Assembly (NCBI GenBank): GCA_017467865.1
Contig: JAFUKG010000032.1
Location: 181,681 to 245,680, forward strand
Source of the DNA: Clostridia bacterium
GTDB taxonomy: Bacteria; Bacillota; Clostridia; Oscillospirales; SIG627
DNA length: 64,000 nucleotides
Direction: 5' to 3'
A program made the translations under genes and the position numbers. The notes below the pieces were generated by a model. The model saw only the letters and a program-made list of their open reading frames with translations, was not told the origin of the DNA and searched no databases. This document shows positions 19,390 to 56,690 of the stretch, piece by piece. Each line of letters starts with the position of its first letter. The stretch's first letter is position 1.

Positions 19390-19660
19390 CGAAATATTTA
19401 AAGGCTGTGACGAAGACGGTTTTGAAGGTTGTTTTCAGAGAGTCGGCATTTGGTGTGAGCCGATAGCATACCGACAAAGTGACCTATCACTTCCGAGCCG
19501 AAGTGCTGAAACATGAGTAGGTGCTTCCGTGATTGCTGCGTAAATGCATAGGAATTGTTTGATTCCAAAAAGTGGCAGTTTTACTGCAATTTGAGTGGTA
19601 CCGCGAGTAATTTTTTACCCGTCTCAAAGAAAAGCTTTGAGACGGGTTTGATTTTTTTAG
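19390..19660 (+). promoter_or_regulatory. T-box riboswitch, specifier AUC (Ile)
   Basis: Stem I carries the distal-loop signature CAGAGAG..TTGGTGTGAG; its base pairs GGCT..GAAG with CTTC.GAGCC. Between that helix and AGGT/ACCT the 3' side of the specifier loop is ATCA, so the codon is AUC (19486-19488) plus the usual purine. The T-box sequence TGGTACCGCG is at 19596-19605, pairing with a tRNA ACCA end. A terminator (ACCCGTCTCAAAG / CTTTGAGACGGGT and T run) ends the leader, 15 bp before the gene. T-boxes allow read-through when the cognate tRNA is uncharged. Confidence 0.93.
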
Positions 19661-32175: not shown

Positions 32176-32189
32176 TTCATATCATAGAA

Positions 32190-32460
32190 AAATGCATTGA
32201 AGGAATTATCACTTATTCCCCTTTTGTCAAAGAGAGCCGAGTTTGGTGAGAGTCGGTACAAAAAGCTTAGGTGAGTCTCGTTCCGGAGCAGAATTGCAGA
32301 AGGTCCTCGGACTGCGTAAGCAATTACGGCTTGCCCCGTTACCATGGCAGAAGGCTTGATTGAGTCTTGACGAGTGACTGCACTTGCAGTAATTCGGGGT
32401 GGTACCGCGAAAATGTATTTTCGTCCCCTTGACAGGAAAACTGTCAAGGGGCTTTTTGTA
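32190..32460 (+). promoter_or_regulatory. T-box riboswitch, specifier CUC (Leu)
   Basis: Stem I pairs GGAAT with GTTCC at the base and CACTTA with TAGGTG above it. Between these helices the 3' side reads AGTCTC, so the codon next to the conserved purine (G) is CUC (32277-32279). The distal loop has AAGAGAG..GTTTGGTGAGAG. T-box TGGTACCGCG at 32400-32409; terminator CCCCTTGACAG / CTGTCAAGGGG plus T run at the end. It precedes a LeuA-like gene, which independently agrees with leucine. Confidence 0.93.
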
Positions 32461-46971: not shown

Positions 46972-47040
46972 AAATCGTAAATTTCGGTAAAACCGAAATT
47001 GTCCTTAATTCATCATTCATCATTCATCATTCTGCATAAA
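46972..47040. repeat. Intergenic array, TGATGA/ATTCATC linker type
   Basis: Hairpin AATTTCGGT-aaa-ACCGAAATT followed by (ATTCATC)n and TTCTGCAT, the right half of the array type seen at 21956. Confidence 0.6.
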
Positions 47041-49356: not shown

Positions 49357-49442
49357 GTAATAAAAAACTTATATTGCCAAAACCGCAGATATATGGTAAA
49401 ATAAGCTTTAGTAAATTTCAATTTTGAAATATTTTTTTGCAG

Positions 49443-49563
49443 TCACGTGCGGGGGATTTTCTCGTGCGGAGCGGATTAGCGTAGCCTGAGAAAATTCAAG
49501 CCATACAGTGAACGAAGGTGGAGCAATGTGCGACACCGTAGTGAGTCGTAACAAAGTATGGTG
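49443..49563. other. Repeated structured element, copy 1
   Basis: Starts GTGCGGG and ends near GTATGG. It has a 10-bp stem GGATTTTCTC / GAGAAAATTC around a 24-nt loop (GTGCGGAGCGGATTAGCGTAGCC-type), then CCATAC..GTATGG, and an inner GGTG / CACC hairpin with a 22-nt block identical to copy 2 (51311-51418). It is not coding on either strand. May be an RNA or a mobile DNA element. Confidence 0.65.
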
Positions 49564-49581
49564 AAAAAATACGAAAAAATT

Positions 49582-49612
49582 TGTGACCTTTTCACTCCCT
49601 AATACGTGTTAA
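49582..49612 (+). promoter_or_regulatory. Candidate ECF-type promoter of the sigma factor operon
   Basis: TGTGACCTTTT, 12 bp, CGTGTTAA, resembling ECF -35 (AAC-TTTT) and -10 (CGTC) boxes; 15 bp before the ATG of the ECF sigma gene. It would give autoregulation. Confidence 0.45.
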
Positions 49613-49627
49613 GGTTAGGAGGTACAA

Positions 49628-50104
49628 ATGAGCCGTTCTTCTCACGATGAGATAAATGCGGTGTATGATAAATATTCTGACACGATGTACAGAATTGCGC
49701 TCTCCCACCTTTTGAATAAAGAGGATGCCGAGGATGCAGTCCACGACGTTTTTATAAAGTACATGAACGGAAGCTTTGCTTTCTTCTCTGAAGAGCACGA
49801 AAAGGCATGGTTCATCAGAGTGACCGTCAATCACTGTCACGACCTGATGAGACGGCGGAAGCTCAGAAGCCACGCTCCTCTCGAAGAAGCTATGGAGGTT
49901 TTCGCCGAGGCAGGTACGTCTGACACTATGAGAGAAATACTCACTCTCGAGGATATTTACAAAACGCCCATCATACTCCATTACTTTGAAGGATATTCTG
50001 TTGAAGAAACAGCCAGAATGCTGAGGATTTCAGTATCTGCTGTAAAAATGAGACTTTCCCGAGGACGGGATAAGCTCAAAGATAAGCTTTCGGGCGAGAT
50101 TTAG
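49628..50104 (+). CDS. ECF-family RNA polymerase sigma factor
   Basis: 158 residues with sigma-70 region 2 (YDKYSDTMYRIALSHLLNKEDAEDAVHDVFIKYM..KAWFIRVTVNHCHDLMRRRK) and region 4 (LTLEDIYKTPIILHYFEGYSVEETARMLRISVSAVKMRLSRGRDKLKDKL). The N-terminal linker has no other domain. It is followed by an anti-sigma-like gene after 17 bp and a lipoprotein, so it is likely held by the anti-sigma until an envelope signal arrives. The promoter candidate upstream suggests autoregulation. Confidence 0.94.
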   Translation: MSRSSHDEINAVYDKYSDTMYRIALSHLLNKEDAEDAVHDVFIKYMNGSFAFFSEEHEKAWFIRVTVNHCHDLMRRRKLRSHAPLEEAMEVFAEAGTSDTMREILTLEDIYKTPIILHYFEGYSVEETARMLRISVSAVKMRLSRGRDKLKDKLSGEI

Positions 50105-50121
50105 AAAAGAGGTGTTGCCCG

Positions 50122-50646
50122 ATGAACGAAAACGATATCAGCGCTTACAAAAAAATAACCGCACCAAGCTCCATAAAAGAAAGACTTATAAGTGAAAGTG
50201 CCAAGGAAAGAAAAAATCATCACGTAAAGGCAGCTTTTTGTTATGCTGCGGCGGGAATTGCCGCAATGATAATATTCGCCTTTACCTTCTTCTGGAACGA
50301 GGGGGCAAGCCTATACCTCAACGGCGATGAGATTGGCGGTAAAAACGTATTTGTTTATGAAAACTCGTCGGTGGCTGTGGCACGCACCTTTACAGCCTCC
50401 CGTGTTACCATTCCCTTAAAGACCGACAAGGATGCCGAAATTACGGTTTCGTCAGGGATGATAGTAATTGACGGAGAGGATATGGGGCAAAAGATAAAAA
50501 CCAAAAAAAACGCAGAATTCATCTGGATGTTTGAAGGCGAAGCCGACGGATATCAGCTCGAAGTAAAAACGGATAAGAAAAGCTCCCTTTACAGTATCTC
50601 ACACAAAGAAGGAACTGAAAAGTTCTACATTAAAAAAGTAAATTAA
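50122..50646 (+). CDS. Putative anti-sigma factor
   Basis: 174 residues. A short cytoplasmic N-terminus (MNENDISAYKKITAPSSIKERLISES) precedes one membrane helix (about 38-56: AAFCYAAAGIAAMIIFAFTFFW) and an extracellular beta-rich domain (LYLNGDEIGGKNVFVYENSSVAVART). The layout and the position after the ECF sigma gene are those of membrane-bound anti-sigma factors. No ZAS His/Cys motif is visible, so the ID rests on context. The N-terminal helix would bind the sigma. Confidence 0.72.
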   Translation: MNENDISAYKKITAPSSIKERLISESAKERKNHHVKAAFCYAAAGIAAMIIFAFTFFWNEGASLYLNGDEIGGKNVFVYENSSVAVARTFTASRVTIPLKTDKDAEITVSSGMIVIDGEDMGQKIKTKKNAEFIWMFEGEADGYQLEVKTDKKSSLYSISHKEGTEKFYIKKVN

Positions 50647-50669
50647 AAAGCCGAAAGGAAAAAAGAAAA

Positions 50670-51281
50670 ATGAAAAAGCTCGCACTTGTACTCGCACTCA
50701 TTCTCGCACTTGCAGTAATGCTCGTATCCTGCGCAAAGGACGATGCAGAAGCACCCGAAAACAACAATGAGGTTGTTGACAACGTCAACAACAACGAAAC
50801 ACCCGACGTTCCCGAAACACCCGACGTTCCCGAAGCAAGCACTTCTGTTCTCAGCGCGGAAGAACTTCAGGCGGCAGTTGACAAAATCTATGAAAAGTAT
50901 CCCGTTCCCTTTATGGCAGGCACTATTCCTGCAGAAATGATTACCGCTGATTATTATGCATATTACACAGGTCTTGCAGATGACTCTAAGGTAAATGCAG
51001 TAATCGTTTCAGAGTCTATGATAGGCTCTCAGGCTTACTCTCTCGTTCTTCTCAGCGTTAAGGACGGCGAGGACGCAGAGGCAGTTGCAACAGAAATGAT
51101 CAACGGCATCAACCAAAGAAAGTGGATGTGCGTTGAAGCAGACCTTATCAGAACTGTTGTATCAGGCAACACAGTTATGCTCGTTATGATTGACTCCGAA
51201 ATGCAGATCGGTATCGACGGCTTTGTTGATGCATTCGTTGAAGCAGTTGGAGAGGTAACCTTCGAGGCTACAAAGAACTAA
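50670..51281 (+). CDS. Lipoprotein, DUF4358-like, in the ECF operon
   Basis: 203 residues. Signal peptide ending VMLVSCAKDD with a lipobox Cys; a linker with the repeat TPDVPETPDVPE; and a C-terminal domain (about 65-200) with EELQAAVDKIYEKYPV..MITADYYAYYTGLADDSKVNAVIVSESM..YSLVLLSVKDGEDAEAVATEMI, similar to DUF4358 as I remember it. It is 23 bp after the anti-sigma gene. Such lipoproteins follow ECF sigma pairs in many Clostridia; function unknown. The last codons lie in a hairpin. Confidence 0.78.
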   Translation: MKKLALVLALILALAVMLVSCAKDDAEAPENNNEVVDNVNNNETPDVPETPDVPEASTSVLSAEELQAAVDKIYEKYPVPFMAGTIPAEMITADYYAYYTGLADDSKVNAVIVSESMIGSQAYSLVLLSVKDGEDAEAVATEMINGINQRKWMCVEADLIRTVVSGNTVMLVMIDSEMQIGIDGFVDAFVEAVGEVTFEATKN

Positions 51282-51301
51282 GGCTCAGCCTTAGTTCTTT
51301 G
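51271..51301. terminator. Perfect palindrome at the end of the ECF operon
   Basis: CAAAGAACTAAGGCT / AGCCTTAGTTCTTTG arms with a one-base centre, covering the stop codon. There is no strong T run, so termination is likely but not certain. Confidence 0.6.
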
Positions 51302-51310
51302 AATGCAGAT

Positions 51311-51418
51311 GTGCGGGTTACTTTTGCGGTGTAGCGAATTAGCGGAACCTGCAAAAGTAAAAGCCATGCAGTGAACGTAGGTGGAGCAATGTGCGACACC
51401 GAAGTGAATCGCAATGCA
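51311..51418. other. Repeated structured element, copy 2
   Basis: Aligns to 49443-49563. The 10-bp stem here is TTACTTTTGC / GCAAAAGTAA, perfect; copy 1 has GGATTTTCTC / GAGAAAATTC. At positions 1, 2, 4, 8 and 9 both strands of the stem changed together. The following block GGTGGAGCAATGTGCGACAC is identical in both copies. Confidence 0.65.
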
Positions 51419-51550
51419 GAATGTAGAATGTAGAATGCAGAATGCAGAATTAAGGAAAATTTTGCTGAAAGCAAAATTTTAATTAAAAGTAAATTTGCCT
51501 AAAGGCAAATTGTCCAAAATTCATCATTCTACATTCATCATTCTGCATTT
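51419..51550. repeat. Intergenic hairpin array, TGCAGAATG-linker type
   Basis: Left arm (GAATG(C/T)A)n in five copies; hairpins AAAATTTTGC-tgaaa-GCAAAATTTT and AATTTGCC-taaa-GGCAAATT; right arm inverted ATTCATCATTCTACATTCATC words. Same family as 21956-22098. Confidence 0.7.
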
Positions 51551-56499: not shown

Positions 56500-56655
<156 letters not shown>

Positions 56656-56659
56656 ATTG

Positions 56660-56690
56660 AAAAAGCGGACTCTTTCGAGTCCGCTTTTTC
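56660..56690 (-). terminator. Terminator of the phosphoesterase/peptide operon
   Basis: AAAAAGCGGACTC / GAGTCCGCTTTTT perfect stem, one base after the peptide stop codon on the minus strand. Confidence 0.92.

Follow-up and report, generated by a model that had tools for sequence, protein, structure and literature searches.

A small interspersed repeat with two covarying hairpins and conserved G.A mismatches in a genus of Oscillospirales

The pneumococcal BOX, RUP and SPRITE elements are short, modular, intergenic and strongly folded, and they are supposed to be mobilised in trans; the parasitic BOX and RUP repeats are over-represented between convergent genes (PMC3049150). REP, BIME and REPIN sequences, which are associated with RAYT (TnpA-REP) proteins, form extragenic hairpins in composite arrangements and are supposed to be recognised as folded single-stranded DNA (ssDNA) (PMC6006769, PMC8266576, PMC3116915). 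The repeats bcr1-bcr18 of the Bacillus cereus group are taxon-restricted, intergenic and ~100-150 nt long, some being MITE-like and some structured (PMC3446304). Certain interspersed repeats are transcribed and certain ones have a conserved RNA structure, as described for bcr10 and bcr18 (PMC3446304).

The element described here, a unit of ~105 nt in the genome of a Clostridia bacterium (G000), appears to be a variant of such small structured interspersed repeats, and its working mode resembles that of REP/BIME and BOX in being short, folded, extragenic and presumably spread in trans. With BOX, RUP and SPRITE it shares the modular build and the excess between convergent genes, but it has no sequence or Rfam match to them, its ends are defined by empty sites without target-site duplication, its stems covary between subfamilies around fixed G.A mismatches, and its hosts are other palindromic elements. 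It is taxon-restricted, intergenic and of similar length like bcr1-bcr18, but comes from an unrelated taxon, is unrelated in sequence and lacks a duplication. Compared with REP/BIME/REPIN it is a larger two-hairpin unit whose hairpin feet lack the GT[AG]G guide, and only one of its four carrier genomes has a Y1 gene. On balance, we lean toward reading it as a non-autonomous, genus-restricted mobile repeat; its folded single strand, probably ssDNA, would be the form that is recognised, and its movement would depend on an activity in trans.

Copies in the window and distribution of the family

The window, i.e., the whole analyzed stretch of 64,000 nucleotides, corresponds to positions 10547-74546 on the minus strand of contig C29 (256,226 bases) of G000. 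Copy 1 (49446-49550, plus strand) was matched with 117.4 bits at 49441-49554 by R1, a covariance model built from 24 G000 copies, and its ends follow from filled and empty sites. It is located between two divergent genes, one for a P-type ATPase and one for the ECF sigma factor. Copy 2 (51310-51413, plus strand), which has exact ends and an R1 match of 132 bits at 51305-51417, lies between the final gene of the ECF operon and an MBOAT gene. A 21-mer common to both copies was found in none of 100 dinucleotide shuffles of the window, and the fold z-scores of the copies are -2.6 and -3.4.

About 30 copies are present in the 1.59-Mb genome of G000, 27 clear places being found by blastn within this genome. 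The covariance model search suggested in the preliminary description was carried out with R1 and yielded 32 matches in G000. Two of these mirror the window copies, as C29 looks like an inverted duplicate of itself, with position p pairing with 256227-p. A 19.9-kb stretch from the far end of C29 equals the window letter for letter, and the loci L001 and L013 are reverse complements of L002 and L014, respectively. This duplication is probably an assembly artefact, and copy counts from C29 are therefore doubled.

Six, nine and nine copies were detected in the congeneric genomes G007, G008 and G010, whereas none was found in the other 18 genomes of the family searched (G009, G011 and 16 further ones). 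Across 394 genomes of the order, R1 gave only two weak, unconvincing matches outside the carriers, in G298 and G355, which were rejected on inspection as ordinary hairpins; the G355 match is part of a different repeat with tRNA-Ser-like pieces. A second covariance model from 47 copies, used with stricter filters, matched its own genome alone among 391 sampled genomes of the class. The searched viral contigs, phages and plasmids held no match, and no Rfam family matched the element at gathering or permissive thresholds, in agreement with the initial impression that it belongs to no known RNA family. A pattern scan of GTDB contigs, from which the own genus was possibly absent, gave 12 single matches in unrelated phyla, which were read as chance. 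The element is thus multi-copy, dispersed, intergenic, folded, non-coding and taxon-restricted, as expected of a small interspersed structured repeat. A longer, autonomous version was sought among partial covariance model matches, and only truncated or internally deleted copies were found.

Three near-identical cores (L032, L035 and L043) stand head-to-tail with a 116-base period in G008 (C25:39673-40015). The repeat in G355, a genome of another family of the order, is a distinct multi-copy element adjoining tRNA genes (L096, L097, L102); it shares GGAGAGATATCGAAGCGG-like pieces with the 5′ halves of tRNA-Ser and possibly consists of tRNA-derived repeats.

Fold, covariation and conserved mismatches

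The core consists of TGWGCGG, hairpin 1, AAGCCRTRCA, hairpin 2 and GAGTCGKA, in this order. In the consensus, the long stem of hairpin 1 is followed by a 3x3 internal loop (GNA/GNA type), a 2-bp helix and finally a loop resembling GAATTA. Hairpin 2 has a GA/GA foot and continues with 2 bp, a 3x3 loop similar to GNA/GNA, 4 bp, a second GA/GA, 3 bp and a triloop. In copy 1, hairpin 1 (49454-49497, plus strand) is formed by the stem arms GGATTTTCTC (49454-49463) and GAGAAAATTC (49488-49497), followed by the 3x3 internal loop, the 2-bp helix and the loop GGATTA, while hairpin 2 (49510-49544, plus strand) carries GA/GA at its foot (49510-49511 with 49543-49544) and inside (49521-49522 with 49532-49533). 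Hairpin 1 of copy 2 (51318-51360, plus strand) has the arms TTACTTTTGC (51318-51327) and GCAAAAGTAA (51351-51360), and its hairpin 2 (51373-51407, plus strand) shows GA/GA at the same two places.

The stems are as first reported: five of the ten pairs differ between the two copies and all five are compensated, one pair in copy 1 being a G.T wobble. Two copies on their own are weak evidence for covariation. Among the 24 G000 copies, 19 of 30 pairs show double-sided changes with 98.5% of the cells paired, and the covariation score of 0.426 (mean of shuffled alignments 0.168) was reached in none of 500 shuffles. An alignment of 47 distinct copies from the four congeneric genomes, made with MAFFT, gave double-sided changes in 22 of 31 pairs (221 cells), 96.6% paired cells and a score of 0.444 (shuffled mean 0.167, again 0 of 500); the covariation collapses to at most 0.094 when the partners are slid by one column. 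A covariation test, as the preliminary description had proposed, was performed with our own R-scape-like script, in which a parsimony tree with 300 simulated alignments serves as the null; a single tree is a simplification, since the copies recombine. Only the pairs 20-41, 17-45 and 75-89 pass this harsh null, exceeding all 300 simulations; nine of the ten best column pairs overall are structure pairs, and the tenth lies one column off a stem pair. Within G000 there is covariation in the outer TRC/GYA helix; 13 congener copies have a broken middle pair, and outside G000 this helix is doubtful.

The pairing itself is real and conserved, as had been claimed from the two copies; the further step from covariation to selection calls for caution, since template switching in the course of replication is able to preserve hairpins and to yield multi-base compensatory changes (PMC8794818). 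This established mechanism, together with gene conversion, might keep the arms complementary, in which case the covariation would be a mutational product of passive repeats. Some pairs are broken in a number of copies, and two pairs of copies (L012 at 1498 and at 2103; L005 and L018) are identical except for the entire hairpin 2, which would fit exchange or templated change by module. Both arms change in these swaps, which a single correction would not do. Moreover, the GA/GA and GNA/GNA mismatches should have been lost under templated correction, but more than 90% of the copies retain them, and we regard unselected palindrome maintenance as improbable. The hairpin-2 differences seem to indicate module exchange between copies.

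The tandem GA/GA mismatches are kept within variable stems in 44 and 43 of the 47 copies, and the GNA/GNA-like loops in most of them while adjacent pairs change type. The opposite strand would carry TC/TC, for which no such pairing is known, and the plus strand was therefore taken as the folding strand. Near-invariant tandem G.A within stems makes selection for the folded plus strand likelier than mere palindrome repair. The element is a test case in that covariation among paralogous repeats alone is no proof of a functional RNA.

In two shortened copies from two species (L004:641-730 and L048:1501-1588) the upper part of hairpin 2 is exactly missing. What is left is GCGAAGC, which is known to form an extraordinarily stable DNA mini-hairpin. 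These copies represent either two independent deletions or an old subfamily.

Insertion sites and search for a mobilising gene

The cores sit within other intergenic palindromic repeats, namely elements made of GAATNNN heptamers and elements with the small hairpin GGCGTACNNNNGTACGCC, and both kinds exist with and without a core. The GAATNNN elements of the window (46995-47040, 51414-51550 and 56530-56660, the last one core-less) combine heptamers, AT-rich hairpins and inverted heptamers; the stems of the AT-rich hairpins differ in sequence while their complementarity stays. The host repeat of copy 2 (51414-51550) has GAATNNN heptamers at 51419-51449, two AT-rich hairpins and inverted heptamers at 51520-51543. 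A separate palindromic repeat of ~120 nt, GAACAAACCTCGCC...GTACNNNNGTAC...GGCTTCGGTTTGTCC (L076, L077, L079, L083, L089 and others), is likewise a host site of the core. It was found in all six genomes of the genus, with more than 40 matches in G009, and often at contig ends.

Filled and empty sites were compared in four cases: L057 with L149 (both G008), L034 with L136 (both G010), L058 (G010) with L076 (G008), and L040 with L081/L087 (all G007), the core of L040 being inverted relative to its host repeat. The empty sites are paralogous host repeats instead of the same locus in a sister strain. All four comparisons agree on the core ends TGWGCGG...GAGTCGGA (the GAGTCGKA end), and none shows a target-site duplication. 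Wherever a clean empty counterpart was found, a small hairpin precedes the core on the core's own strand, with 0-2 nt between its 3′ foot and the core; the host repeat at L024 (G000) apparently lacks four bases. Elsewhere the distance to the bordering hairpin reaches up to 30 nt. Within 30 nt of the core, a hairpin with a stem of at least 7 bp was found on the 5′ side of 22 and on the 3′ side of 21 of the 47 copies, whereas 21% of the intergenic points drawn at random have one (p = 2e-4 and 4e-4, respectively). One example is the 14-bp palindrome CAAAGAACTAAGGCTCAGCCTTAGTTCTTTG (51271-51301) directly upstream of copy 2, which overlaps the end of the preceding gene. Since many unrelated sites are occupied, insertion instead of loss is the probable direction at the host repeats, and the feet of other hairpins are apparently the points of entry for the copies. 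The early suggestion of an insertion-type element is borne out by this behavior as a mobile repeat. Evidence this clear for a maintained fold on one strand, together with exact ends and empty sites, is rare for bacterial interspersed repeats.

Group IIC introns insert without duplication just 3′ of hairpins or terminators. The element seems to insert in a similar way, but it is only ~105 nt long and has no Rfam group II match, and the six genomes of the genus gave no match for a reverse transcriptase gene (PF00078). In these six genomes the DEDD recombinase of IS110/IS1111 (PF01548) and TnpB/Cas12f-like genes (PF07282) were also not detected, while the control genomes gave matches. The classical DDE-type MITEs do not fit either: TGWGCGG and GAGTCGKA are not terminal inverted repeats and a target-site duplication is absent.

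Two hairpins on the same strand, without terminal inverted repeats or target-site duplication, are consistent with a miniature IS200/IS605-type or REP/RAYT-type element that a hairpin-recognising Y1 (HUH) transposase would mobilise. One Y1_Tnp gene (PF01797), for which control genomes gave matches, is present in G008 (L075), but its 3.3-kb locus holds no copy of the element, and none was detected in the other three carriers G000, G007 and G010 (draft genomes, 82-90% complete); the associated RAYT/Y1 transposase considered in the preliminary description was thus not found in G000. A search for the Y2 transposase of IS91/Helitron-like elements (Y2_Tnp, PF04986) gave no match, in the control genomes either. 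In the 5′ flanks of the 47 copies no constant target tetra- or pentanucleotide stands beside TGWGCGG, and the GTAG/GTGG tag that marks the 5′ foot of REP hairpins (PMC6006769) is not conserved at either hairpin foot. We consider such a Y1-driven miniature very improbable. On the defining features tested, the element does not qualify as a REP/RAYT element, an IS200/605 miniature, a classical MITE or a group II intron, and the absence of mobilising genes is provisional because the genomes are incomplete.

In the favored reading of a folded strand moved in trans, the identity of the element would lie in its two covarying hairpins and conserved G.A motifs, which are found on one and the same strand throughout. 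This strand might be recognised in trans, in the course of replication or repair, by an ssDNA-directed protein or activity that cuts or joins at hairpin feet, as TnpA-REP does at REP hairpins, though without a conserved target tetranucleotide. A bolder version, which we put forward only tentatively, is an undescribed class of mobile repeats that propagates as folded ssDNA, is recognised by tandem G.A and GNA/GNA, joins the 3′ foot of hairpins without duplication and depends on an enzyme outside the HUH, DDE, IS110 and RT groups. A mobiliser, if found, would explain the spread of orphan repeats without detectable transposase and would show a hairpin-foot insertion route beyond the known transposase groups.

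Gene context and the ECF operon

The copies adjoin unrelated genes, most of them standing behind a gene or between two convergent ones; of the 39 with both neighbors called, 17 are convergent, 18 tandem and 4 divergent. The upstream gene is co-directional with the folding strand in 27 of the 41 copies for which it was called. This bears on the choice between RNA and ssDNA, both of which had been named at the outset and which the sequence of the folded plus strand could fit alike. As a functional RNA, the plus strand would be transcribed mostly as the 3′ tail of the upstream gene, its fold would bind a protein or shield or process the transcript, and dispersal would be secondary. Helices that covary and contain conserved G.A motifs are a usual feature of structured RNA, G.U-type pairs are frequent, and bcr10 and bcr18 provide a precedent for transcribed or structured interspersed repeats (PMC3446304). 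However, the copies usually come after a terminator-like hairpin, leader-like divergent positions are rare, and the neighboring genes show no common function. In addition, about one third of the copies (14 of 41) are opposite to the upstream gene, which leaves many without an obvious transcript, and the unrelated flanks hold no conserved promoter. The last two points count for DNA over RNA, and we judge a primary RNA function to be rather unlikely. Against the mobile ssDNA reading stands, besides the failure to find a mobilising gene, the lack of an orientation bias relative to local gene polarity (19 of 42, p = 0.64), which a lagging-strand route might show; the lagging-strand bias sought as a mark of ssDNA mobility was thus not found.

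The two window copies do flank the ECF operon, but this is incidental, as they are two of ~30 dispersed copies. Copy 1 is one of the rare divergent copies; the gene that it precedes was confirmed to encode an ECF-type sigma factor. A promoter scan of this region gave sites not more numerous than in shuffles. The proposed regulatory role at the operon was rejected, since the neighbors of the copies are unrelated and few copies stand in divergent gaps.

Apart from the repeats, two T-box leaders (RF00230) were identified in the window at 19398-19629 and 32188-32431, both on the plus strand.
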